The notes beneath the pieces were generated by a model. It was not told where the DNA came from. It ran no database searches and saw only the letters and a list, made by a program, of their open reading frames with translations. Of a stretch of 64,000 bases of DNA, positions 6,379 through 19,726 are shown piece after piece. A program made the position numbers and the translations under genes. Numbering within the stretch: the first letter of the stretch is position 1; each line of letters begins with the position of its first letter. Source of the stretch: Candidatus Accumulibacter sp. ACC003 (GTDB lineage Bacteria; Pseudomonadota; Gammaproteobacteria; Burkholderiales; Rhodocyclaceae); the NCBI RefSeq assembly GCF_907163085.1, contig NZ_CAJQTX010000007.1:248001-312000 (forward strand), read 5' to 3'.

Positions 6379-6687
6379 TCAGATTTCGAGGAAAACGGTG
6401 CCACTTTCGACGCGGATCGGGTAGCGGCGCGAGCAGCCCTGGTCGGGGGCGACGGCTTCACCGGAATCCAGTTGCAGTTTCCAGCCGTGCAGTGGGCAGG
6501 TCACCTGTTGGCCATGCACGATTCCCTGCGACAGCGGTCCGCCCTTGTGCGGGCAGCGGTCGCGCAGCGCGAACACCTCGTCGGTCGACGTGCGGAAGAC
6601 CGCAATATCGCCGCTCGTTGCGCGGACGACGCGACTACCCAGTCGCGGGATCTGGTCAATCGTACAGATCGATTTCCATTCAGCCAT
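6379..6687 (-). CDS. nirD: Assimilatory nitrite reductase (NADH) small subunit, Rieske type
   Basis: The protein has 102 residues, starting at the ATG at 6687-6685, which opens a MAEWKSICTIDQIPR sequence. Rieske-like ligands are present as Cys45-Pro-His47 in RCPHKGGPLSQG and Cys64-Pro-Leu-His67 in CPLHGWKL. It has retained both Cys-His pairs, so it probably holds a 2Fe-2S cluster; many NirD proteins have lost these ligands. It sits 17 bases after nirB and supports the large subunit in the six-electron reduction of nitrite to ammonia in the cytoplasm. A longer overlapping open frame that runs into nirB is only a shadow; the short start is preferred because it gives the exact family length. Confidence 0.92.
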   Translation of the reverse strand: MAEWKSICTIDQIPRLGSRVVRATSGDIAVFRTSTDEVFALRDRCPHKGGPLSQGIVHGQQVTCPLHGWKLQLDSGEAVAPDQGCSRRYPIRVESGTVFLEI

Positions 6688-6704
6688 TTCCGTTCTCCAG
6701 TTCT

Positions 6705-9134
6705 CTATACCGAAAGCAGTTCGTATTCGTTCTTCTCGACGCCGGCGATACGCTCGGCCCAGGGGTCTTTGGCGTCTTTCAGCTCGGCCAGCAGACGAGC
6801 GTGCAGCGCCTTGCGGTTTTCCGCGTCGTCGACAACGCGATTCTTGGCGTGTTCGAGGCCGACGCGTTCGAGGTAGTGGCAGGTGCGTTCGAGGTAGAAG
6901 CCTTCCTCGCGGTAGAGCTGCAGGAAGGCGCCGGCGTACTCCATCACTTCTGCGTCGTTGCTGACCTTGACGAAGAACTGCGCGACCTCGGTCTTGATGC
7001 CGCCGTTGCCGCCGACGTACAGTTCGTAGCCCGAATCGACGCCGATCACGCCGACGTCCTTGATGCCGGCTTCGGCGCAGTTGCGCGGGCAACCCGAAAC
7101 GGCCAGCTTGACCTTGTGCGGCGCGTACATGTCGAAGAGCATCTTTTCGAGCTTGACGCCCATGTCCATCGCCAGTTGCGTGCCGAAACGGCAGTGTTCG
7201 GCGCCGACGCAGGTCTTGACCGTGCGGATCGACTTGCCGTAGGCATGGCCCGAGGGCATGTCGAGGTCTTTCCAGACGCCGATCAGGTCTTCCTTCTTGA
7301 TCCCCAGGAGGTCGATGCGCTGGCCGCCGGTGACCTTGATCGTCGGTACCTGGTACTTTTCGGCGACGTCTGCGATGCGCCGCAGCTCGGCAGAAGTGGT
7401 CAGCCCGCCCCACATCCGCGGCACCACCGAGTAGGTGCCGTCCTTCTGGATGTTGGCGTGCGCGCGCTCATTGATCAGCCGCGAGCGCGGATCGTCCCTG
7501 GCCTCTTTCGGCCAGGTCGAGATCAGGTAGTAGTTGAGCGCCGGGCGGCATTTTTCGCAGCCATCGGGAGTCGTCCATTCGAGGAAGCGCATCGTTTCGC
7601 CGATGCTCAGCAGGCGCTGCTGACGGATCGCGTCGCGCACTTCCTGGTGCGAGAAGTCGGTGCAGCCGCAGACCGCTTTGCGGTTCGACGCCGCCGGCGT
7701 GTAGGCGCCGCCGATGGTCGCCGAGAGCAGCTGTTCGCAAAGTCCGGCACACGAGCCACACGACGACGCCGCCTTGGTGTGCTTCTTGATGTCGTCGAGC
7801 GTGAACAGGCCGTTTTCCTTGATCGCCTTGACGATCGTCCCCTTGCTGACGCCGTTGCAGCCGCAGACTTCGGCGCTGTCGGCCATCGCCGCGGCCTTGC
7901 TGTGGCCCTGGTGGCCGACGTCGCCGACGTGCGCCTGACCGAACAGCAGGTGGTCGCGAATCTCGTGGATGTCCTGGCCGTCGCGCAGAAGCTGGTAGTA
8001 CCACGGACCGTCGGCGGTGTCGCCGTAAAGCACGCCGCCGACCAGTTTGTTGTCCTGGATCACCAGCTTCTTGTACACGCCACCGGCGGCGTCGTTGAGG
8101 ATGATCTCCTCGGTATCCTTGCCGCCGAAGAAGTCGCCGGCCGAAAACAGGTCGATGCCGGTGACCTTGAGTTTGGTCGAGGTTACCGAACCGGTATAGC
8201 GGCCGATGCCGTAGTTGCCGAGGTGGTTGGCGGCGACCTTGGCCTGCTCGAACAGCGGCGCGACGAGGCCGTAGGCGATGCCGCGGTGCGCGACGCACTC
8301 GCCGACCGAGTACACCTTCGGATCGTAGGTCTGCATGGTGTCGTTGACGACGATGCCGCGGTTGCAGTGGATGCCGGCCGCCTCGGCCAGGGCGACATTC
8401 GGACGGATGCCGATGGCCATCACCACCAGGTCGGCCGGCAGCTGCACGCCGTCCTTGAGGCGGACGGCGGCGACGCGGCCGCTTTCACCGGCGACCAGCA
8501 TTTCGGTCTGCTTGCCGAGCAGGAACTTGAGGCCGCGCTCTTCCAGCGATTTCTGCAGCATCCGCCCGGCGGTCTCGTCGAGCTGCCGCTCGAGCAGCCA
8601 GTCGGCGAGATGCACGACGGTCACGTCCATGCCGCGCAGCTTCAGGCCGTTGGCCGCTTCGAGGCCGAGCAGACCGCCACCGATCACCACCGCGTGCCCG
8701 TAACGGCGAGCGGCGTCGATCATCGCGTCGGTATCGGCGATGTCGCGGTACGAGATCACGCCCGGCAGCTCGTTGCCGGGGATCGGCAGCATGAACGGGG
8801 TCGAGCCGGTCGCCAGCAGCAGCCGGTCGTACGCTTCCTCGGTGCCGTCTTCGGCGATCACCCGCCGCTTGACGCGGTCGATGCGGCTGACCTTCTTGCC
8901 GAGGTGCAGGGTGATGCCGTGCTCGGCGTACCACTGGTGATCGTTGAGGATGATGTCCTGGATCGTCATCTCGCCGGCGAGCACCGGCGAAAGCAGGATG
9001 CGGTTGTAATTGGGGTGCGGCTCGGCGCCGAACACCGCGATATCGTAGTAATCGGGGGCGATTTTCAGCAGCTCCTCGAGCGTCCGCACGCCCGCCATGC
9101 CGTTGCCGACCATCACCAGTTTCTTCTTGCTCAT
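6705..9134 (-). CDS. nirB: Assimilatory nitrite reductase (NADH) large subunit
   Basis: This 809-residue enzyme has the full NirB domain order. The N-terminus is an FAD-binding NADH oxidoreductase (MVGNGMAGVRTLEEL at the start, and VVIGGGLLGLEAANGL for NAD). Next come BFD-like 2Fe-2S cysteine motifs (CGCNGVSKGT and CGSCAGLCEQLL) and a CGCTDFSH segment. The C-terminal sulfite/nitrite reductase ferredoxin repeat and catalytic domain follow. The siroheme-4Fe4S ligands are Cys642, Cys648, Cys682 and Cys686 (TCVGAEHC and SGCPRNC). With NirD it reduces nitrite to ammonium in the cytosol. It is the first gene of the operon, and a consensus sigma-54 promoter about 40 bases upstream implies nitrogen-status control through an NtrC-type activator. 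Confidence 0.96.
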   Translation of the reverse strand: MSKKKLVMVGNGMAGVRTLEELLKIAPDYYDIAVFGAEPHPNYNRILLSPVLAGEMTIQDIILNDHQWYAEHGITLHLGKKVSRIDRVKRRVIAEDGTEEAYDRLLLATGSTPFMLPIPGNELPGVISYRDIADTDAMIDAARRYGHAVVIGGGLLGLEAANGLKLRGMDVTVVHLADWLLERQLDETAGRMLQKSLEERGLKFLLGKQTEMLVAGESGRVAAVRLKDGVQLPADLVVMAIGIRPNVALAEAAGIHCNRGIVVNDTMQTYDPKVYSVGECVAHRGIAYGLVAPLFEQAKVAANHLGNYGIGRYTGSVTSTKLKVTGIDLFSAGDFFGGKDTEEIILNDAAGGVYKKLVIQDNKLVGGVLYGDTADGPWYYQLLRDGQDIHEIRDHLLFGQAHVGDVGHQGHSKAAAMADSAEVCGCNGVSKGTIVKAIKENGLFTLDDIKKHTKAASSCGSCAGLCEQLLSATIGGAYTPAASNRKAVCGCTDFSHQEVRDAIRQQRLLSIGETMRFLEWTTPDGCEKCRPALNYYLISTWPKEARDDPRSRLINERAHANIQKDGTYSVVPRMWGGLTTSAELRRIADVAEKYQVPTIKVTGGQRIDLLGIKKEDLIGVWKDLDMPSGHAYGKSIRTVKTCVGAEHCRFGTQLAMDMGVKLEKMLFDMYAPHKVKLAVSGCPRNCAEAGIKDVGVIGVDSGYELYVGGNGGIKTEVAQFFVKVSNDAEVMEYAGAFLQLYREEGFYLERTCHYLERVGLEHAKNRVVDDAENRKALHARLLAELKDAKDPWAERIAGVEKNEYELLSV

Positions 9135-9436: not shown

Positions 9437-9691
9437 ATGGAAGCACCCTTGCCAGGGTCTCGGCGACTCGGGGACTTGATCCTGAACGCCAACGGCTACA
9501 CCTTCGACACCCGCACCGGCAGGAGTTACAGCGTCAATCCGCCCGGCATGATCGCCTTGCTGATTATGCAGGACGGGAAATCGCGGCGCGCGATGATCGA
9601 TGCGCTGGTCGCTGCTTGCCAGCAGCCGCGTGCCGTCGTCGAGGCCGGCGTCGACGATTTTATCCAGCAGCTTACGAGGTGCGTGTCGTGA
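9437..9691 (+). CDS. PqqD-like small protein (84 aa)
   Basis: The start is the ATG at 9437, six bases after a CAGGAG ribosome site. The sequence (GDLILNANGYTFDTRTGRSYSVNPPGMIALLIMQDG, then a helical tail with LVAACQQPRAVVEAGVDDFIQQL) follows the PqqD/RRE winged-helix pattern. That pattern is beta strands with 'G..Y.ld..Tg..y.lN..a..i..ll.dG', then an acidic helix carrying the D-V-x-x-F-type ending. PqqD-like domains bind precursor peptides and hand them to modifying enzymes. Here it overlaps the ATP-grasp gene by four bases, so it is likely the recognition partner of that enzyme. No precursor-peptide gene was found beside it. The assignment rests on pattern, not on a search. Confidence 0.65.
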   Translation: MEAPLPGSRRLGDLILNANGYTFDTRTGRSYSVNPPGMIALLIMQDGKSRRAMIDALVAACQQPRAVVEAGVDDFIQQLTRCVS

Positions 9692-10800
9692 TCCGGCACG
9701 CCGATCAGCCGCATTGGACGGCTTGGAATGTCGCGCTCACGGGTATCAACGCCAAGCCCGACAACCCCGGTCCGGGCTGTGCCGTGGCGCGTTGCCTGCG
9801 GCAGGCGGCGGGCTTTCGCGGCCGCATCATCGGCCTCGCCTACGAGACGCTTGACGCCGGTCTTTATCAGCGGGAAACCTGCGACAGCGGTCACTTGCTA
9901 CCGTATCCAGCGACCGGCGCGGCGGCGCTACTCGAGCGACTCGACGAGATCCTGCCGCACGACCCGGTCGATGCTCTGCTGCCGTGTCTCGACGCCGAAC
10001 TGCCCAACTTCATTGCCGTCGAAGGCGAGCTCAAGCGGCGTGGCATTCGCCTCCTGTTGCCGCAGCGTGCGCAATTGCGCCGCCGCGACAAGGATCGCCT
10101 GCCAGCGCTGTGCGCAGCGGCCGGCGTCGCCACGCCGGCCGTGCAGAGCCTGGTCGACGAGCGATTCTTCGACGACTGCGACGCCGACGGCTGGGATTAC
10201 CCGCTGCTGGTCAAAGGCGTTTTTTACGACGCGTACGTCGTCTATTCGGCGTCCGAAGCTCGCCAGCGTTACCGGCAGATAGTCGCCACCTGGGGCTACC
10301 CGGTGCTGGTCCAGAAGTTCGTCCATGGTGAGGAAGTCAACCTGACGGCGCTTGGCGACGGCAGCGGCGCGATGATCGGCGAGGTGATGATGAAGAAACA
10401 GGCGCTCACCGACAAGGGCAAGGCCTGGGCCGGTGTCACCATCGATGACCCGGATCTGCAGGCGGCCGGCCGGCGTTTGTTCGACGCCCTCAAGTGGCGC
10501 GGGCCGCTCGAAATCGAGATGCTTCGCGACCAGGCCGGCCGCCTGCAGCTGATCGAAATCAATCCGCGCTTTCCGGCCTGGATCTATCTTGCGCACGGCG
10601 TTGGCCGCAATCTGCCGGCCGCGCTGCTGGCCTTGATGGACGGCGTCAAACCGTCGCAGCTGAAGCTGGCGCCGCCGTGCCCGGGCACCAGCTTCATCCG
10701 TCACGCGCAGGAAACGATCGTCGCCCTCGATGAAATCGCCAGCCTGGCGATGAGTGGCAGCACGGCGCGTCCGCACGCGCTCGCCAGCCGCGCCGCCTGA
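9688..10800 (+). CDS. ATP-grasp family ligase
   Basis: The start is taken as GTG 9688, which overlaps the stop of the PqqD-like gene (GTGA); GTG 9679 in the same frame is an alternative. The product has about 370 residues. It has an N-terminal pre-ATP-grasp region (VALTGINAKPDNPGPGCAVARCL). The nucleotide-binding fold follows: YPLLVKGVF (ATP lysine), VLVQKFVHGEEVNL (adenine contact and lid) and LIEINPRFPAWIY, the metal-binding Glu-x-Asn motif of carboxylate-amine ligases. Such enzymes activate a carboxylate as acyl phosphate and join it to an amine or thiol. The substrate is unknown. Its place between a PqqD-like protein and a PLP decarboxylase suggests it ligates an amino acid or the decarboxylated amine. 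Confidence 0.8.
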   Translation: MIRHADQPHWTAWNVALTGINAKPDNPGPGCAVARCLRQAAGFRGRIIGLAYETLDAGLYQRETCDSGHLLPYPATGAAALLERLDEILPHDPVDALLPCLDAELPNFIAVEGELKRRGIRLLLPQRAQLRRRDKDRLPALCAAAGVATPAVQSLVDERFFDDCDADGWDYPLLVKGVFYDAYVVYSASEARQRYRQIVATWGYPVLVQKFVHGEEVNLTALGDGSGAMIGEVMMKKQALTDKGKAWAGVTIDDPDLQAAGRRLFDALKWRGPLEIEMLRDQAGRLQLIEINPRFPAWIYLAHGVGRNLPAALLALMDGVKPSQLKLAPPCPGTSFIRHAQETIVALDEIASLAMSGSTARPHALASRAA

Positions 10801-10819
10801 AACCCGCAAGGAGAAAAGA

Positions 10820-12223
10820 ATGAGCAAGATGACCTGGCAAGCCCCGCGTATAGAACCCCTGACACTGCCCGCGTTGAACAGGTTTGGCCGGCGCCGGCTG
10901 GCTGCCGACGCGCAGTCGGCAATCGACGGCGTGGCGGTCGAAACGCTGGTCGAGCGCTACGGCTCGCCACTCTACGTCACCTCCGAGTCACGTCTGCGCG
11001 CCAACGTCCGGCGTATCACGCAGGCTTTTGCCAGTCGTTACCCGAAGGTGATTCATGGCTGGTCTTACAAGACCAATTACAACGGTGCGGTCTGTTCGAT
11101 CCTCCACCAGGAAGGCTCGTGGGCCGAAGTGGTGTCGCGCTTCGAGTATGAAAAGGCGCGCGCGCTTGGCGTGCCGGGCGAGCACATCATCTTCAACGGC
11201 CCGAACAAGCCGCGTTCGATTCTCGAACGGGCGATCGCCGAAGGCGCCTTGATCCACGTCGATCACGCCGACGAGCTGGCATTGATCGAAACCATCGCCG
11301 AAGAACGCCGCGAGTGCGTTCCGGTGACGCTGCGCCTGAATTTCAAGACCGGTTACAGCGAGCCCTGGAGTCGCTTCGGCTTCAATCTCGAATCTGGCGC
11401 GGCGCGCGCGGCAATCAAGCGGGTAAAGGTCAGCCGACACTTGCGCCTCAACGGCCTGCACAGCCACATCGGCACCTTCATCCTCGATCCGCGCGCCTAC
11501 GCCGCCGCAGTGAGCACGCTCTGCATGTTGGCCCGCGAGATCGAGGCCGACGGCACGCGCCTGAGCTACATCGATATTGGCGGCGGCCTGCCGTCCAATA
11601 ACGCCCTGCAGGGCATCTATCTGCCGCCCGAACAGTCCACGCCGGACCTCGAGGAATATGCCGACGCGATCTGCAGCGCCTTTCTGGACGGAACGGCGTA
11701 CCGACTCGACCAGGGCGAAGAACGTCCGGCGCTGCTTTTTGAGAGCGGCCGGGCGGTGATCGACGACGCGCAGAGCCTGATCACCTCGGTGGTCGGCCGC
11801 AAGGAAACCGCCGACGGTCGCCCGGCCGCGATCCTCGACGCCGGTCTGAACACCCTGTTTACGGCATTGTGGTACGACCAGCCGGTGCGCCTTGCTTCGC
11901 CGGCGCGCGGCGAGCTGCGCGACACCGTGCTCTACGGCCCGCTGTGCATGAACATCGATGTGCTGCGGCACTCGGTGCAACTGCCACCACTGGCCGTCGG
12001 CGATCGTCTGGTGTTCGCGCCGGTTGGCGCCTACAACACCACCCAGTCGATGCAGTTCATCGAATACCGTCCGGCCGTGGTGCTGATCCACGGTGACCGC
12101 GAGCTGAGCCTGATCCGGGCGGCGGAGGATCTCGAAGTGGTCTGCGCGCAGGAACGGCTACCGGCGCATCTGGCGCCGAAAACGGCGGCAGCTGTCGTCG
12201 CCCTGCGCGCCGCTGGAGGCTGA
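10820..12223 (+). CDS. PLP-dependent group III (alanine-racemase-fold) amino-acid decarboxylase
   Basis: The protein has 467 residues from the ATG at 10820, with an AAGGAG site at 10808-10813; a longer upstream frame overlaps the ATP-grasp gene and is not used. It shows the ornithine/diaminopimelate decarboxylase signature set: the PLP lysine in WSYKTNYNG (Lys84), HSHIGTF, DIGGGLPSNN for phosphate binding, ESGRAV, and YGPLCMNIDVL for the active-site cysteine region at the dimer interface. It likely removes the alpha-carboxylate from a basic amino acid or diaminopimelate-like compound. The usual lysA neighbours are absent and the sequence departs from LysA in several motifs. A dedicated decarboxylase for the cluster product is therefore more likely than lysine biosynthesis, but that is inference. 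Confidence 0.82.
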   Translation: MSKMTWQAPRIEPLTLPALNRFGRRRLAADAQSAIDGVAVETLVERYGSPLYVTSESRLRANVRRITQAFASRYPKVIHGWSYKTNYNGAVCSILHQEGSWAEVVSRFEYEKARALGVPGEHIIFNGPNKPRSILERAIAEGALIHVDHADELALIETIAEERRECVPVTLRLNFKTGYSEPWSRFGFNLESGAARAAIKRVKVSRHLRLNGLHSHIGTFILDPRAYAAAVSTLCMLAREIEADGTRLSYIDIGGGLPSNNALQGIYLPPEQSTPDLEEYADAICSAFLDGTAYRLDQGEERPALLFESGRAVIDDAQSLITSVVGRKETADGRPAAILDAGLNTLFTALWYDQPVRLASPARGELRDTVLYGPLCMNIDVLRHSVQLPPLAVGDRLVFAPVGAYNTTQSMQFIEYRPAVVLIHGDRELSLIRAAEDLEVVCAQERLPAHLAPKTAAAVVALRAAGG

Positions 12224-12224
12224 G

Positions 12225-14384
12225 ATGAAGGTCCTGATCGACGGCCTGAACAGCCTGCTCGACGCCTATGGCGCGCTGTTCCTGGCGCGCCAGCGCGTCG
12301 TCGGTGCGCTGCTCCTGGCGGCGACGCTGAGCGATCCGGAAACGGGTCTCTGCGGTCTGCTGGCGGGCGTCAGCGCACTGCTGACGCGCGCCTTGCTGCG
12401 TTTGCCGGGCATGGCTGGCGAGGCCGAGATCCTCAACGCCATTTACGCCGGTCTGGCCCTAGGCGCCTTCTACGGCGGTCCGCCGCGGACTCTTGCGCTG
12501 GCCGCATTTGGCGGCCTGTTGGCCGTGCCGCTGGCGACCGCGCTGCGCCAGATGCTCGCCGGCCCGTTCGGCGCGCGTGGCTTGCCGCTGCTCGGTGCGC
12601 CATTTCTGGTCACCGCCTGGACCTTGCTCGCGGTGGCCAAGACCATCGGCCTGCCGTTGCGCTCGCTGTGGCCGGTCTGGCCGGTCTTTCCGGACTGGCT
12701 GCCGGCGGCCAGCGCAACGGCGCTGGCGCACGTCGGCGCGCTGTTTTTTGTGGCGAATCCGCTGGCCGGCGTGCTGGTCCTCGCCGCCGTACTCCTGACC
12801 TCGCCGCTCCTGGCCCTGCTGGCCATCGCCGGCGGCTTGTTGGCGAGTGGCGTGCTGTCGGTGGCCAGCAGCTCGCCGACCTCGAGCCTGGCCATGCTGG
12901 GAGTCTTCAACGGTGCACTGGTGGCGATCTTTGTCGGTGGCACGCTGGCCGTGCCAGGCAGACGTACCCTGCTGCTTGCGGCCGGCGCCGTGCTGGTCGC
13001 CAGCGCGCTCTCGGCCGGGATGTTCGCGCTGTCGATAGTGCTCGGCGTGCCGCCCCTGTCGGCGCCGTTCGTGCTCACCGTGTGGCTGGCCAGCGCGGCC
13101 TTGCGAGCCGAGAGCAGCTTCTTCTGGGCACGCTTCTGGCTGTCGGTACCGGCGTCTCCCGAAGACAGTATGGTCAACGCACGCCTGGCCAGGGCGCGCG
13201 GGCTGGCCGCCGGCAGCGTTGCTCTGCTACCCCCGTACGCCGGCCGCATGGCGGTGTCGCAGGCGGTCGACGGTCCGCATACGCATCGCGGCGAATGGCG
13301 CTATGCGCTCGATTTCGTCCGTCTCGTTGACGGCCAGAGCTATCGCCGCGACGGCGCCAGGCTGAACGATTTCCATGCTTTCGACGAGCCGGTGTTGTCG
13401 CCGGCCGACGGCTACGTGACGGCGTGTCGCGGCGATATTGCCGACAACCGGCCGGGTGAAATGAATTCGCTCGAGAACTGGGGGAACCACGTCCTGATCG
13501 ACATCGGCGCTGGCCTTTATGTGTTGCTGGCGCATCTCCGTCGCGGCAGTATCAAGGTCGAGCCGGGACAGCGCGTCGCGCCGGGTGCGCTGCTCGGTCA
13601 CTGCGGCAATTCGGGCCGCTCGGCACAGCCGCACCTGCATTTGCACGTCCAGCGCGGACCCCGCCTGGGTTCGCCGACGCTGCCATTTCATCTCGCACAC
13701 TGCCTGATCGACGGCCGCGAATACGCGCTCGACGGCCATCCGCAGGAGGGTCAGTCGGTCGAGGCGGTGCTCAATGACCCGTCGATGGCGGCGGCCTGTG
13801 CCCCCAGGGCAGGCCGCGAATGGTTGTTCGAGGAGCGGGCGAACGAGTGGCGGCTGGCTGCCGAAGTCGGTTTGCTGGGTGAAACCAGCCTGCTCTCTTC
13901 CGGCGGTGGCCGCGTCCAGGCCAACAGCGCGCGCAGCCTGCTGGCTCTCCATCAGCGGCGGGGTTCGCCGGACCGCCTGCTCGATGCCTTTGTCCTGGCT
14001 TTCGGGATGACGCCCTTTGCCGCGCAAGCTTTGCAGTGGGGCGACGCGCCCGACGCGTCGCTGTTGCCACTGCCGCTGGCGCTGCGGCTGGCGCGGCGCT
14101 TGCGTCATCCTTTTGGCGGCAATCTCGAAAGCGCTTGCGAGCGCAGCTGGGACCCTACTCGCCGCCTCTGGTGTCAGCGCTCGCGTCACCGCTTGACGAC
14201 TGCTCTTGGCGAGGTCGACGGCGAGAGTATCGGCTGGCTCTCCGAAGCGTGTGGTCCGGTGGCGTTCTCGCTGGTGGTCGACGGCCAGACGATCGTCGAC
14301 GCGGCGCTTGTCGGCTACGGCAATCGTGGCGATCATGGCGTTCCGGCCTGGTCGGCCGCCTACCCGCAAACATCGATGTCATGA
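12225..14384 (+). CDS. Urea-transporter-like membrane domain fused to M23 metallopeptidase
   Basis: The protein has 719 residues and starts one base after the decarboxylase stop. About residues 10-300 are very hydrophobic with two similar halves, and resemble the SLC14/UT urea channel family (segments such as AEILNAIYAGLALGAFYGG and LAMLGVFNGALVAIFVGG, the paired LxGxxxNG-type motif). Residues 340-480 form an M23/LytM peptidase. The zinc ligands look intact: His354...Asp363 (HRGEWRYALD) and the HLHLH box at 470-474, with an intervening GNHVLIDIG strand. The last 240 residues have no recognised domain. M23 enzymes usually cut peptidoglycan peptides. A channel joined to one is unusual, and the function is unknown. 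The ATG of the sensor kinase overlaps its stop. Confidence 0.82.
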   Translation: MKVLIDGLNSLLDAYGALFLARQRVVGALLLAATLSDPETGLCGLLAGVSALLTRALLRLPGMAGEAEILNAIYAGLALGAFYGGPPRTLALAAFGGLLAVPLATALRQMLAGPFGARGLPLLGAPFLVTAWTLLAVAKTIGLPLRSLWPVWPVFPDWLPAASATALAHVGALFFVANPLAGVLVLAAVLLTSPLLALLAIAGGLLASGVLSVASSSPTSSLAMLGVFNGALVAIFVGGTLAVPGRRTLLLAAGAVLVASALSAGMFALSIVLGVPPLSAPFVLTVWLASAALRAESSFFWARFWLSVPASPEDSMVNARLARARGLAAGSVALLPPYAGRMAVSQAVDGPHTHRGEWRYALDFVRLVDGQSYRRDGARLNDFHAFDEPVLSPADGYVTACRGDIADNRPGEMNSLENWGNHVLIDIGAGLYVLLAHLRRGSIKVEPGQRVAPGALLGHCGNSGRSAQPHLHLHVQRGPRLGSPTLPFHLAHCLIDGREYALDGHPQEGQSVEAVLNDPSMAAACAPRAGREWLFEERANEWRLAAEVGLLGETSLLSSGGGRVQANSARSLLALHQRRGSPDRLLDAFVLAFGMTPFAAQALQWGDAPDASLLPLPLALRLARRLRHPFGGNLESACERSWDPTRRLWCQRSRHRLTTALGEVDGESIGWLSEACGPVAFSLVVDGQTIVDAALVGYGNRGDHGVPAWSAAYPQTSMS

Positions 14385-15922
14385 TCCGCCTAACCATTCA
14401 ACGCAAGGTCTTTCTCGCCAGCTTCGCTCTGGCGACGAGTATGGCCGTGCTCCTCACCCTGGTCATGCGCTGGAATCTCGGCGACGGTTTCGAGCGCTAC
14501 ACGAGTGCCGCCGAGTTGGCCGGCCTCGACGGCATGGTCAGCAACATCGAGGCCGAATACGCCAGGCACGGCAACTGGGACTTCGTTCGCGCGGCACCCG
14601 AGCAGAGCTGGCGGCGCCTGTCGCGCCCGAGTTCGGGGAACGCTGCGGAGCCTGCGGGTGGCTTTTCGCCCGGCTTGCCGCCGCCGTTCGGGCCAGGGCC
14701 AGGCGCCGCCCGTCCGCCCTGGGGTGAGCGGCCGCTACCGCCCGACGTTGATCGGCGGCCAGCGGGCGAAGCCAACGCCGCTGCGACGCCGCCGCAAGGC
14801 TCGCCCGGCAGTCCGCCGCCGGGCGACATCCTGCGCCTTGGCCAGCGTCTTGCGCTGCTTGACGCCGACGGCCAGTGGCTGGCGGGTAAGGCCCGGGCGA
14901 GCGGCGTCGGTGCCGCAACGCCGATTGTCCACCAGGGCAAGGTCGTCGGTCAGCTGACCCTGCAGGCCGTACCGTCGTCGGGACGCGCACTCGACGCGGC
15001 TTTCCTGGCCAGCCAGACCGAGAACATGCTCTTCGCCGGACTGGCGGCGCTGGGCTTCTCGCTGCTCGCCGCGTGGCTGCTGGCACGGCATCTACTGGCG
15101 CCGATTGGTGATCTGGAACGAGCGGCGCGGCAGATCGCCGACGGCTCGCTGGATACGCGCATTGACGTCCGCAGTGAAGACGAGCTCGGCCAGTTGGCCA
15201 CCAATTTCAATGCCATGGCCGTGCGCCTGGGCCGTGTCGAGGAATCACGCCGGGCCTGGATCGCCGAGAGCTCGCACGAACTGCGGACGCCGCTGGCCGT
15301 CCTGCGCGCCGAGATCGAGGCGATGCAGGACGGCGTGCGCCGGCCCGACGCGGCGACGCTGGCGCGGCTACACAAGCAGGTGCTGCAGCTCGCGAAGCTG
15401 GTCGACGACCTCCGGCTGACACTCGATCGCGAAGCCGGTGGGGGCGAAATGGAGCAGCGTCTGCTGATGCCGGTGGCGATACTCGAAGAGACCGTCGCCG
15501 CATTTCGCGAACGCTACCTCGATGCCAACATCCGGCTTGACACCGCGCGCCTGGTCGATCTCGGCTGGTGGGTGCGCGGTGACGCCGGACGCCTGACGCA
15601 GGTATTTGCCAATCTGCTCGAGAACAGCCTGCGCTACACCGACGCCGGTGGACAGCTGGCGATTGCCGCGCAAGCCAGCAAGCAACAGCTGCTGCTGGAC
15701 TTTGACGACAGCGCGCCAGGGCCACCGGCGGCCGCGCTGCCGCGACTGTTCGAGCGCTTCTTTCGCGCCGAGGAGTCGCGCAGCCGGGCCTTCGGCGGTT
15801 CCGGCCTCGGCCTGGCGATTTGCAAGGCGCTGGTCGAGGCGCACGGTGGCCGCATCAGCGCGACGCCAGCAAAGCTTGGCGGCCTGCACATCCGCGTCGA
15901 ATTACCCCTGGAGAAAGCATGA
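14381..15922 (+). CDS. Sensor histidine kinase, BaeS-like
   Basis: The start is the ATG at 14381 (ATGA overlap with the previous gene), giving 513 residues. The first transmembrane helix is near residues 10-30. A long periplasmic section follows, with a Pro/Gly-rich low-complexity stretch at about 85-150, and the second helix is near 215-235 (MLFAGLAALGFSLLAAWLLA). Next are a HAMP domain (LLAPIGDLERAARQIADGSL), the dimerisation/phosphorylation helix with His299 in SSHELRTPL, and a HATPase_c domain with N-, F- and G-boxes (ANLLENSLRYTD, FERFFRAEESR, GSGLGLAI). It should phosphorylate the regulator encoded immediately after it. The signal is unknown; overlap with the urea-transporter/M23 gene suggests it senses an envelope state or product linked to this cluster. 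Confidence 0.92.
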   Translation: MIRLTIQRKVFLASFALATSMAVLLTLVMRWNLGDGFERYTSAAELAGLDGMVSNIEAEYARHGNWDFVRAAPEQSWRRLSRPSSGNAAEPAGGFSPGLPPPFGPGPGAARPPWGERPLPPDVDRRPAGEANAAATPPQGSPGSPPPGDILRLGQRLALLDADGQWLAGKARASGVGAATPIVHQGKVVGQLTLQAVPSSGRALDAAFLASQTENMLFAGLAALGFSLLAAWLLARHLLAPIGDLERAARQIADGSLDTRIDVRSEDELGQLATNFNAMAVRLGRVEESRRAWIAESSHELRTPLAVLRAEIEAMQDGVRRPDAATLARLHKQVLQLAKLVDDLRLTLDREAGGGEMEQRLLMPVAILEETVAAFRERYLDANIRLDTARLVDLGWWVRGDAGRLTQVFANLLENSLRYTDAGGQLAIAAQASKQQLLLDFDDSAPGPPAAALPRLFERFFRAEESRSRAFGGSGLGLAICKALVEAHGGRISATPAKLGGLHIRVELPLEKA

Positions 15923-16605
15923 GCAAAGAGATCCTGATCGTCGAGGACGAACTCGACCTCGCCCAGATCCTCGCCGAATACCTGCAGCGCGACGGTTTCG
16001 CAACGACCACCATGGCCGACGGCCTGGCGGCCATGGCGGTCCTCCGGCGAACGCCGCCCGACCTGCTTTTGCTCGACCTGATGCTGCCCGGGATGGACGG
16101 CATTTCGATCCTGCGCGAGTTGCGCAAAACATCGAACTTGCCGGTGATCATGGTCACTGCCCGCGTCGACGAAATCGACCGCCTGCTCGGCCTCGAACTC
16201 GGCGCCGACGACTACGTCTGCAAACCCTACTCGCCACGCGAAGTAGTGGCCCGCGTCAAGACCGTACTGCGTCGCATACAGCCGGCGGCGGGCCTTACCG
16301 TCAGCCCGAAAATCGGCGGCGCAGCGCTGGAAATCGACGCTGACGCCTTGCAGGCGCGGGTCGCCGGCAAGAGCCTTGAACTGACGCCCAAGGAATTCCG
16401 GCTGCTGCGGGCGCTGGCCGGCAAACCGGGACGCGTCTTCTCGCGTGCGCAACTACTCGACGCGCTCTACGACGATCATCTCGAGGTTTCAGAACGTGCC
16501 ATCGACAGCCACCTGAAGAACCTTCGCAAGAAACTTGTCCAGGCTTTCCCGGGTGAGGAGCCGATCCGTTCGATCTACGGAGTCGGTTTTGCCTTCGAAT
16601 CGTAA
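15919..16605 (+). CDS. OmpR/PhoB-family response regulator, BaeR-like
   Basis: This 228-residue protein overlaps the kinase stop by four bases. The receiver domain carries the acidic pair Glu9-Asp10, the phospho-acceptor Asp53 in LLLDLMLPGMDG, the switch Thr in VTARVDE and the conserved Lys in CKPYSPRE. The C-terminal winged-helix DNA-binding domain is complete (LTPKEFRLLRALAGKPGRVFSRAQLLDALY through SIYGVGFAFE). It likely regulates its own cluster or the TRAP transporter that begins 241 bases downstream. Family identification is strong; target genes are not shown by the sequence. Confidence 0.93.
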   Translation: MSKEILIVEDELDLAQILAEYLQRDGFATTTMADGLAAMAVLRRTPPDLLLLDLMLPGMDGISILRELRKTSNLPVIMVTARVDEIDRLLGLELGADDYVCKPYSPREVVARVKTVLRRIQPAAGLTVSPKIGGAALEIDADALQARVAGKSLELTPKEFRLLRALAGKPGRVFSRAQLLDALYDDHLEVSERAIDSHLKNLRKKLVQAFPGEEPIRSIYGVGFAFES

Positions 16606-16771: not shown

Positions 16772-16846
16772 TGGCAGCGCTGCTGTCGGCCATTGGCCAG
16801 CGAAATCCCGGCGACGCTGCTCAAACCCCCGCTACGAGGAGACGAT

Positions 16847-17839
16847 ATGAAACTGCCTTCGCTGCTGCGTCATTCCGCGGCTGCCCTGTTTGCCGCCGGT
16901 CTTGCGCTCTCGGCGTCTGCCGAGACCAGGTGGGACATGCCGACGCCGTATCCGGTGAGCAACTTCCATACCGAGAATATCCAGCAGTTTGCCAGCGCCG
17001 TCGATGCCGCCACCGGCGGCAAACTGAAGATCACGGTGCATGCCAACGGCGCCCTGTACAAGGCCAACGAAATCAAGCGCGCGGTGCAGGGTGGGCAGGC
17101 GCAGATCGGCGAGATCATCATTTCCGGGGCGGCCAACGAAGACCCGCTGTTCGCCCTCGACACCATCCCCTTCCTGGCCAGCAGTTATCCGGAAGCGCGC
17201 GCGCTGTGGCAGGCGTCGCGCGCCAGGATCGAGGAGAAATTCGCCAAGCAGGGGCTGAAGGTGCTGTTCTCGGTGCCGTGGCCGCCGCAGGGAATCTACT
17301 CGAAAGTCGCGCTGAATTCGTCGGCTGACCTGAAGGGTGTGAAGATCCGCTCATACAGCCCGACGGTGGCGCGGATGATCGAATTGATGGGCGCCCAGCC
17401 GGTGACCGTGCAGGCCGCCGAACTGACGCAGGCGCTGACTACCGGTGTCGTTTCGGCGAACATCACCTCGGCGTCTACGGGTTACGACTCGAAGAGCTGG
17501 GAACAGTTGAGCTATTACTTCGACGTCCAGGCGTGGTTACCGAAGAACATCGTGATCGTCAACCAGAAGCAGTTCGACAGCCTCGACAAAGCCAGCCGCG
17601 ACGCGCTGCTGAAGGCCGGCGCCGCCGCCGAGTTGCGCGGCTGGAAGACGTCCGAGGAAAAGACGCGCTGGTACGTCGAACAACTGAAGAAGAACAACAT
17701 GAAGGTCCTGCCGGCTTCGGCAGACCTGCAACACGACCTGCTCGGGATTGGCCAGCGGATGACCAGGGAATGGCTCGAGCAGGCGGGTCCCGAAGGGCAG
17801 CAGGTCTACGACGCGTACCGCAAGGCGGTCAAGAAGTAG
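16847..17839 (+). CDS. dctP: TRAP transporter solute-binding protein, DctP family
   Basis: The protein has 330 residues, with a GAGGAG site at 16836-16841 before the ATG. The N-terminus is a Sec signal peptide with likely cleavage after ALSASA (residue 25). The mature protein follows the DctP pattern. It has an early PVSNFHTENIQQFASAVDAATGGKLKITVHANGALY stretch, the ALTTGVVSANITS region, and the central LKGVKIRSYSPT segment. That segment carries the arginine (Arg in KIRSYS) that normally pairs with a carboxylate ligand. It is the periplasmic receptor for an organic acid, which it passes to the DctQ/DctM membrane pair encoded next. The particular substrate cannot be read from sequence alone. 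Confidence 0.93.
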   Translation: MKLPSLLRHSAAALFAAGLALSASAETRWDMPTPYPVSNFHTENIQQFASAVDAATGGKLKITVHANGALYKANEIKRAVQGGQAQIGEIIISGAANEDPLFALDTIPFLASSYPEARALWQASRARIEEKFAKQGLKVLFSVPWPPQGIYSKVALNSSADLKGVKIRSYSPTVARMIELMGAQPVTVQAAELTQALTTGVVSANITSASTGYDSKSWEQLSYYFDVQAWLPKNIVIVNQKQFDSLDKASRDALLKAGAAAELRGWKTSEEKTRWYVEQLKKNNMKVLPASADLQHDLLGIGQRMTREWLEQAGPEGQQVYDAYRKAVKK

Positions 17840-17895
17840 GGCAGGCGCGGGACGGCAGGGCAGCCGTCGCGCTGGCCTGAGTTCAGCGGCCGCCG

Positions 17896-18414
17896 ATGCG
17901 CACCCTGCTCAACCTGATCTATCGCTGTAGTGGCGCCGCTGCGGCACTGTGCATGGTCGGCGTGCTGCTGATGGTGATCACCGGTGTCGTCACTCGCGAA
18001 CTCGGTATCTACGTTCGTGGCACCGACGACTACGCCGGCTATTGCATGGCGGCCGCCGGTTTTTTGGCGCTCGCCTATACCTTCAAGCACGGCGAACACA
18101 TCCGCGTGACCTTGCTCATCGAGCATCTCTCGGGTACGCCGAAGAAAGTTCTGGAGTGGTCGGCGCTGGCTTTCGGAACGCTGATCAGCGGCGCCCTGGC
18201 GTGGTACAGCGTACGCCTGGTACTCAACTCCCGGCAGTTCAATGACATTTCGCAGGGCGTCGACGCGACGCCCTTGTGGATCCCGCAACTGGCGATGGCC
18301 ATCGGCACCGTGGTGCTGTTGCTGGCCTTCATCGACGACCTGTTGCTGTTCAGTCTCGGCCGGCCGCCGGCGCGCCTGCAAAAGTCGGGCGACGAAGCGG
18401 TGCGTAGCGAGTGA
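17896..18414 (+). CDS. dctQ: TRAP transporter small permease, DctQ family
   Basis: The protein has 172 residues and four predicted membrane helices (about 15-40, 53-70, 90-110 and 135-160), matching the small TRAP subunit in length and layout. Motifs such as VVTRELGIYVRGTDDYAGYCMAAAGFLALAYTFKHGEHIRVTLL contain the family's hallmark 'EhIRVtll' helix end. It bridges the DctP receptor and the large DctM permease in a sodium-driven importer. It lies 56 bases after dctP and 13 bases before dctM, so the three are one operon. Confidence 0.92.
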   Translation: MRTLLNLIYRCSGAAAALCMVGVLLMVITGVVTRELGIYVRGTDDYAGYCMAAAGFLALAYTFKHGEHIRVTLLIEHLSGTPKKVLEWSALAFGTLISGALAWYSVRLVLNSRQFNDISQGVDATPLWIPQLAMAIGTVVLLLAFIDDLLLFSLGRPPARLQKSGDEAVRSE

Positions 18415-18427
18415 GCGGGCTGGCTAT

Positions 18428-19726
18428 ATGGACCTGCTGATCGCTGCCGCGCTGGTCGTCGTGCTGCTGGCCTTTCTGGCCGGCGGCGTCTGGATCGGGC
18501 TGGCGCTGGCTGGCGTCGGCTACGTCGGCATGCTGCTGTTCACGCCGCGCTCGCCGGGCGACGCGATGGCGGTGACCATCTGGGGATCGAGTTCGGGCTG
18601 GACGCTGACCGCGTTGCCGCTGTTTCTGTGGATGGGCGAGATCCTTTTTCGCAGCCGTCTCTCGGAAGACATGTTCAAAGGCCTGTCACCGTGGCTAGAG
18701 CGCCTTCCGGGTCGCCTGCTGCACGCCAACATCATCGGTTGCACGATCTTCGCCGCGGTTTCGGGTTCGTCGGCGGCGACCTGCGCGACGGTCGGCAAGA
18801 TCACCCTGCCCGAACTGCGCAAGCGCGGCTATCCGGAGCACATGGCGATCGGCACTCTGGCCGGTGCCGGGACGCTCGGGCTGCTGATTCCACCGTCGAT
18901 CATCATGATCGTTTACGGCGTCGCGGCGGAGGTGTCGATCGCCAGGCTGTTCATCGGCGGTGTCCTGCCGGCGCTGTTGCTGGCCGCCCTGTTCATGGGC
19001 TGGGTCATCCTTTGGGCGCTGCGCCATCCCGAACAGGTGCCGCCGATCAGCGTCCGCACGACGCTGCCGCAGAAGCTGGCCGCGTCGATCAGCCTGCTGC
19101 CGGTGCTACTGCTGATCGTCACCGTTCTTGGTTCGATCTATGCCGGCATCGCCACGGCAACCGAGGCCGCCGGCCTTGGTGTCGTCGGCAGTATGCTGAT
19201 CGCGCTGCTGCAGCGCTCGCTGCACTGGTCAAGCTTCCGCGACAGTCTGATGGGAGCCACCCGGCTGTATTGCATGATCGCGCTGATCCTCTCGGGTTCG
19301 TCGTTCCTGACTCTGGCCATGGGCTACATCGGCCTGCCGCGGCAACTGGCCGCATGGGTCGCTTCGCTGGGCCTCGAACCGGGCTCGCTGCTGCTGGTTC
19401 TGGGCGTCTTGTTCATCGTTCTGGGCTGTTTTCTCGACGGCATTTCAATGGTCGTCCTGACCATGGCCGTTCTCCTGCCGACGGTGACTGCCGCCGGTAT
19501 CGACCTGATCTGGTTCGGCGTGTACATCGTGCTGGTCGTCGAGATGGCCCAGATCACGCCGCCAGTCGGCTTCAATCTGTTTGTGCTGCAGGGCATGACC
19601 GGTCGCCAGATGACCGAAATCGCGCGCTATGCGACGCCGTATTTCGTGCTGATGTGCGTCGCGGTAACGATCACTTACTGGTTTCCCGGAATTGTCACCT
19701 GGTTGCCGGCGAAGATGATCCATTGA
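18428..19726 (+). CDS. dctM: TRAP transporter large permease, DctM family
   Basis: The start is the ATG at 18428 (a longer upstream frame overlaps dctQ). This gives 432 residues with 11-13 hydrophobic helices. Family motifs include AAVSGSSAATCATVGKITLPELRKRGYP near residue 120, the GTLAGAGTLGLLIPPSIIMIVYG re-entrant segment, and a second LGCFLDGISMVVLTMAVLLPTV segment with the later EMAQITPPVGFNLFVLQG. These two segments form the transport and sodium sites. It completes the TRAP importer with the two genes before it. Confidence 0.94.
   Translation: MDLLIAAALVVVLLAFLAGGVWIGLALAGVGYVGMLLFTPRSPGDAMAVTIWGSSSGWTLTALPLFLWMGEILFRSRLSEDMFKGLSPWLERLPGRLLHANIIGCTIFAAVSGSSAATCATVGKITLPELRKRGYPEHMAIGTLAGAGTLGLLIPPSIIMIVYGVAAEVSIARLFIGGVLPALLLAALFMGWVILWALRHPEQVPPISVRTTLPQKLAASISLLPVLLLIVTVLGSIYAGIATATEAAGLGVVGSMLIALLQRSLHWSSFRDSLMGATRLYCMIALILSGSSFLTLAMGYIGLPRQLAAWVASLGLEPGSLLLVLGVLFIVLGCFLDGISMVVLTMAVLLPTVTAAGIDLIWFGVYIVLVVEMAQITPPVGFNLFVLQGMTGRQMTEIARYATPYFVLMCVAVTITYWFPGIVTWLPAKMIH

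Follow-up and report, generated by a model that had tools for sequence, protein, structure and literature searches.

What does a gene set joining a PqqD-like protein, an ATP-grasp enzyme, a pyridoxal phosphate (PLP) decarboxylase and a fusion of a UT (urea-transporter-type) domain to an M23 peptidase do? The question arises from a 64,000-nucleotide stretch of the Candidatus Accumulibacter sp. ACC003 genome, hereafter the window (G000:C7:248001-312000, part of a 5.39 Mb genome), in which these four genes are followed by a two-component pair. The first four genes are a conserved set, and the fusion protein, UT-M23, pairs with two unrelated decarboxylase/ATP-grasp sets, so that decarboxylase, ATP-grasp and UT-M23 form the constant theme. 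As a possible, though not a probable, reading, we propose that the four genes build a small amine-type compound while it is tethered, and that UT-M23, whose M23 domain is predicted to lie in the cytoplasm, releases it.

The gene cluster

An open reading frame (ORF) listing places six ORFs on the + strand at the positions given in the original prediction, made from the sequence alone, and the domain calls of that prediction also hold:

9437..9691, + strand: PqqD-like protein, 84 amino acids (PF05402, 25.9 bits against a cut-off of 23.4)
9688..10800, + strand: ATP-grasp ligase-type enzyme, 370 amino acids (PRK12767 CarB-like models, all below their cut-offs; nearest solved relative by profile the CarB-like protein 2pn1, E 4e-15)
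10820..12223, + strand: alanine-racemase-fold (AR-fold) PLP decarboxylase with FigC-like active-site residues (PF02784/PF00278)
12225..14384, + strand: UT-M23 fusion, 719 amino acids (PF03253 and PF01551; model pLDDT 91.6, pTM 0.86)
12225..13196, + strand: UT domain, residues 1-324 of UT-M23
13215..13736, + strand: M23 domain, residues 331-504 of UT-M23, predicted cytoplasmic
13737..14381, + strand: beta-rich C-terminal domain, residues 505-719 of UT-M23 (strands in the model; without a Pfam match)
14381..15922, + strand: histidine kinase, an optional part (HAMP, HisKA, HATPase_c)
15919..16605, + strand: OmpR-type response regulator, an optional part (Response_reg, Trans_reg_C)

The ATP-grasp gene opens with GTG and overlaps the PqqD-like gene by 4 bases; the decarboxylase has an ATG behind AGGAG, 19 bases past the ATP-grasp stop; UT-M23 starts one base past the decarboxylase stop; and 4-base overlaps join the kinase to UT-M23 and the regulator to the kinase. 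A promoter scan found 0 candidates, and terminator-like sites numbered 6 against 5.4 expected.

Conservation and distribution

Scanning one genome per species revealed 234 places with UT-M23 relatives, of which the best-scoring 80 were fetched, and the counts that follow therefore tilt towards nearer relatives. The order PqqD-like protein, ATP-grasp, decarboxylase, UT-M23 is kept on one strand in 66 of the 80 loci. Where 2.9 kb or more of sequence precedes UT-M23, it is found in 65 of 67 loci, all but L037 and L075, which makes the clustering more than chance. Relatives of the PqqD-like protein occur in 66, of the ATP-grasp in 71 and of the decarboxylase in 77 of the 80 loci. Among these best-scoring loci the closest named one, L005, belongs to Candidatus Accumulibacter aalborgensis, with 93% identity in the best UT-M23 segment. 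By record title the hosts include Accumulibacter, Allochromatium, Thiocystis, Mariprofundus, Magnetococcales, Methylococcales and Reyranella, and further Desulfobulbaceae, Nitrospirae, Obscuribacterales/Melainabacteria and Eremiobacterota, and thus span several phyla; many of these records are metagenome bins.

Under strict cut-offs, 398 genomes of the window's phylum yielded UT-M23 in 36, the ATP-grasp in 37 and the decarboxylase in 39, with all three in 32. The presence of UT-M23 is patchy, since it was found in 15 of the 61 genomes of one hit-rich family. Across 64 loci, distances among the four protein families correlate (r 0.78 to 0.90; reached by 0/500 permutations). The six genes had been taken as one cluster: the first four do travel together, and the two-component pair, present in 25 of 64 loci, was rejected as a core part on that count.

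UT-M23: a predicted urea-channel fold with replaced urea-contacting residues

UT-M23 scores 97.9 bits for UT and 51.4 bits for Peptidase_M23, and the UT domain is modelled with a urea-channel fold. Its score against the urea-transporter model TIGR03441 is 41.7 bits, below the cut-off of 274.6. Four residues of the transporter dvUT, Q24, E187, T130 and T294, which we take to be its urea-contacting residues, have as their equivalents A, S or G in 92, 101, 95 and 99 of 101 sequences, respectively. Urea transport by the UT domain, suggested in the original prediction, was rejected on these replacements, which argue against it, and database proteins labelled 'urea transporter' may likewise not carry urea.

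The M23 site is intact: H354, D363, H470, H472 and H437 are present in 101/101 aligned sequences, read against the motif definition H(x)nD plus HxH given in the accessible part of PMC9662197. Loop charges favour a cytoplasmic C-terminus, and with it a cytoplasmic M23 domain, in 101/101 sequences, which speaks against the envelope-facing cutter that had been assumed. In two relatives, P0110 and P0113, UT-M23 runs on into a hydrophobic helix followed by a CubicO/beta-lactamase-type domain.

A second cassette around UT-M23

At L075, UT-M23 stands beside a decarboxylase of the Orn/Lys/Arg type (PF01276) with the aspartate aminotransferase (AAT) fold, an ATP-grasp-type protein and a C45 acyltransferase/hydrolase. 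The best solved relatives of this decarboxylase are 9n0n and 9n0o (610 bits); the ATP-grasp-type protein resembles PRK06524, though its 501 bits stay under the cut-off of 684, and has no Pfam match at E 1e-4. The same second cassette adjoins UT-M23 at L074, L100 and L101, and the genomes of the last two have neither enzyme of the first cassette. Because L100 and L101 belong to one genus, the four loci represent three lineages. Between L075 and L100/L101, identity is 53% for UT-M23, 55-56% for the decarboxylase and ATP-grasp and 69% for C45. The four UT-M23 proteins form one group in a midpoint-rooted tree (support 1.0), and the three examined have a different filter, with W in place of dvUT Q24 and N or G in place of E187. 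BLAST detected no significant similarity between the decarboxylases of the two cassettes, nor between their ATP-grasps, and no PqqD was found in the second cassette.

The AAT-fold decarboxylase occurs in 17 of the 398 genomes, with a second-type ATP-grasp or C45 gene at most 1.5 kb away in 11 of the 17 loci. The window's genome has such a locus on another contig (L112, G000:C4:476956-482532), with the AAT-fold decarboxylase, C45 and the edge of the second ATP-grasp, and without UT-M23. Genome G069 carries two PqqD/ATP-grasp/decarboxylase sets on two contigs (L107 and L108), one adjoining UT-M23. The L075 record, titled Bordetella parapertussis, is a metagenome bin, and its name may be wrong.

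The decarboxylase and its substrate

The decarboxylase scores 111.7 bits for Orn_Arg_deC_N and falls below the cut-offs of both LysA (TIGR01048, 229 against 297.9 bits) and FslC/FigC (NF041039, 215.5 against 500 bits). As the LysA of primary metabolism it was ruled out, since the genome encodes another protein that reaches 508 bits against the same 297.9-bit cut-off. In a profile search its nearest solved relative is FigC (7kh2), at 281 bits against 208 for a diaminopimelate (DAP) decarboxylase. According to the accessible part of PMC7857480, M355 of FigC occupies the place of the acidic residue that reads the side-chain amine in other enzymes, and the specificity helix of FigC carries T327, T330 and Y331, at sites where Asp is found in ODC, ADC and CASDC and Arg in DAPDC. 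Matched by hand on the profile alignment, FigC M355, T327, T330 and Y331 correspond here to M377, T348, W351 and Y352, all four invariant in 33 sequences (the window's and those of 32 of the 77 loci with a relative). The residues at these specificity positions differ from those of ODC, LDC and DAPDC. The citrate-side residues H357 and R387 of FigC are I379 and Q409 by the same hand matching, and the substrate should therefore be conjugated, though not with citrate in the manner of FigC. Together, the FigC-like residues suggest a conjugated amino acid as substrate, and the amino-acid-derived product foreseen in the original prediction fits.

A third, LysA-like decarboxylase (266 bits) lies beyond the window at G000:C7:329062-330261. 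At L106:9130-15694, a decarboxylase relative (560 bits) stands alone beside TIR-domain, AAA and WD40-repeat proteins, an arrangement resembling a conflict system.

The PqqD-like protein, the ATP-grasp and the search for a carrier

The best NCBIfam match of the PqqD-like protein is the lasso-peptide PqqD chaperone, at 32.5 bits and below the cut-off of 70. The ATP-grasp narrowly misses its Pfam cut-off (28.2 against 29.1 bits); its residues K135, K176, E290 and N292 are invariant in 41 aligned sequences and, by their motif, presumably bind ATP and metal.

Near the cluster no conserved precursor common across groups was found, which tells against the peptide substrate that had been considered; most of the short-ORF matches proved to be artefacts of composition or fragments of kinase or regulator genes. 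A precursor encoded elsewhere is conceivable. Among the same short ORFs no other small carrier, such as one of the LysW type, was seen. The one real-looking short-ORF family encodes a protein of some 115 residues; it is conserved in four Accumulibacter loci only, where it lies upstream of the cluster on the opposite strand:

L006:3753-4109, L007:5351-5695, L008:5365-5709 and L009:11-355, all - strand: ~115-residue Accumulibacter protein (short-ORF search)

A TetR-like part precedes the PqqD domain in one frame, as judged by eye, at L024, L039, L041, L044, L045 and L050 (L044 alone being profile-scanned), and also at L051, L057, L058, L059 and L063.

Optional neighbours and flanks

The kinase and regulator, the BaeSR-like pair of the original prediction, are a variable attachment and score under the BaeS and BaeR cut-offs (378 against 500 and 293 against 380 bits). 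In 28 of the 64 loci an outer-membrane barrel, modelled with 14 strands, and a TPR protein take the place of this pair; neither these partners nor the second cassette is visible from the window. Asparagine-synthase-like genes adjoin the cluster or lie a few kb from it at L042:11085-12623, L076:3950-5518, L071:587-2560 and L079:1869-3833 (L079 alone being profile-scanned). In two loci of one genus, L102 and L104, the neighbours of the PqqD/ATP-grasp/decarboxylase trio include genes for an RND-type pump and an FGE-sulfatase-like protein.

By eye, the flank at 6379-9134 (- strand) resembles nirBD-type nitrite reductase genes and that at 16793-19726 (+ strand) TRAP transporter genes. The latter were ruled out as part of the system, since the 80 fetched loci contain no ORF related to DctP at E 1e-10.

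A proposed route and its rivals

On the favoured reading, the ATP-grasp would use ATP to couple the side chain of an amino acid to a carrier, which the PqqD-like protein may present or form part of. The PLP decarboxylase, judging by its active-site residues, would then strip the alpha-carboxyl from the conjugated amino acid, much as FigC, BtrK and MccE decarboxylate conjugated amino acids. Known M23 endopeptidases cleave the link from D-Ala to the diaminopimelate side-chain amine; because this is an amide of the kind that the first step would create, we propose that the M23 domain hydrolyses the tether. The UT pore next to it, with a filter that has ceased to resemble a urea channel's, could let the freed amine out, and the barrel/TPR pair of many relatives might then take the amine across the outer membrane. 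Expression would be set by the two-component pair or, in other lineages, by the TetR-like part fused to PqqD. What the sequences show directly is the conserved gene order, the intact M23 site, the replaced filter residues, the FigC-like residues and the pairing of UT-M23 with two unrelated enzyme sets; the folds come from models, and the steps of the route are inferred. A more specific version, in which UT-M23 is a UT pore retooled for amines, its cytoplasmic M23 domain freeing the amine from the carrier at the mouth and the whole serving as an exit gate common to two unrelated decarboxylase/ATP-grasp lines, is unlikely.

Several observations weigh against this route. No carrier was found: the C-terminus of the PqqD-like protein is not conserved, and no short ORF is common across groups near the cluster. 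The families to which the AAT-fold decarboxylase of the second cassette belongs act on free amino acids, a poor fit to a tether, and UT pores pass small neutral solutes, so that a charged amine is no obvious cargo. These three points, the missing carrier, the second decarboxylase and the cargo, are the weakest links. In addition, both enzyme sets also occur without UT-M23. The PqqD/ATP-grasp/decarboxylase trio lacks it at L102-L104, and UT-M23 is found in 3 of the 17 genomes with the AAT-fold decarboxylase (G000, G045 and G073), the two genes adjoining each other in G045 and G073 alone. At L037, a fragment of the decarboxylase is all that accompanies UT-M23. The cytoplasmic side of M23 is a positive-inside rule prediction, correlated distances among the four families are also expected from common descent alone, and the genome from which the window comes yielded no relative of the barrel in a search without a positive control.

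Four other explanations were weighed. UT-M23 might be a sensor whose UT-like domain binds an outside small molecule and switches the cytoplasmic M23 domain, comparable to the ammonium-transporter-fold receptors of some bacteria; we hold this to be improbable. The enzymes could instead make an amine-capped peptide or peptidoglycan precursor, with a periplasmic M23 domain trimming peptidoglycan near the barrel/TPR pair. Known M23 enzymes cut peptidoglycan outside the cytoplasm, as stated in the accessible part of PMC9662197, and both the barrel and TPR partners and the CubicO-type domain of P0110 and P0113 would suit such envelope modification; however, the loop charges place M23 in the cytoplasm in all 101 sequences, and the CubicO part lies beyond a hydrophobic helix that follows M23, so that we assign this explanation a low probability.

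The PqqD match itself, its presence in 66/80 loci and the lasso-peptide chaperone score, though under its cut-off, would accord with a pathway for ribosomally synthesized and post-translationally modified peptides, with PqqD binding a leader, the ATP-grasp and decarboxylase acting on a ribosomal peptide whose gene lies elsewhere, and M23 cleaving off the leader. An AR-fold decarboxylase, however, requires a free alpha-amine, no short ORF is shared across groups, and the second cassette lacks PqqD; this explanation appears quite improbable. Ordinary polyamine or urea metabolism, with a diamine-forming decarboxylase and a urea channel, is suggested by the domain names UT and Orn/DAP decarboxylase and by the Orn/Lys/Arg-type decarboxylase of the second cassette, but is very unlikely indeed: the urea-contacting residues are replaced, the TIGR03441 score is far under its cut-off, the decarboxylase residues are unlike those of ODC, LDC or DAPDC, and the ATP-grasp and M23 are left unaccounted for.

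If the tethered-amine route is correct, it would be a novel mode of metabolite synthesis and export: a widespread pathway still without a name, in which an M23 peptidase acts within the cell and a channel is joined to the very enzyme that liberates what it carries. The set raises the question of what product two non-homologous decarboxylase/ATP-grasp sets, sharing one membrane protein, could have in common.

Comparison with known systems

Searches of the open-access literature, which left most subscription papers outside, and text of PMC8503589, PMC12419801 and PMC9662197 showed no description of the cluster or of the UT-M23 fusion, and the searches gave nothing useful on the second cassette, in keeping with the original prediction, which recognised no described system with this set. 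In the LysW carrier pathway an ATP-grasp tethers the substrate, work proceeds on the tether and a hydrolase releases the product, as in our proposal; the enzymes differ, no LysW-like carrier was seen near the cluster, and the release domain here is an M23 peptidase fused to a channel. In the butirosin set, BtrJ is reportedly an ATP-grasp that ligates to the carrier. BtrK is an AR-fold decarboxylase acting on a carrier conjugate, as we propose here, and BtrI is an 87-residue carrier protein (both from the accessible part of PMC7857480), whereas the small protein here is PqqD-like and the butirosin set has no channel-peptidase. With the citryl-amino-acid decarboxylases FigC/FslC and SbnH of siderophore pathways, the enzyme shares the Met beside the catalytic Cys and the Thr and Tyr of the specificity helix described for FigC in the same part of PMC7857480. 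It departs from them in having an ATP-grasp as partner, recurrent neighbours without a siderophore synthetase, and replacements at H357 and R387. In contrast to the urea transporters dvUT, UT-A and UT-B, the UT domain has other residues at the urea-contacting positions and is fused to M23; and unlike the M23 peptidases LytM, EnpA and DipM, the M23 domain sits behind a channel, is predicted to be cytoplasmic and has its H354 and D363 nine residues apart.

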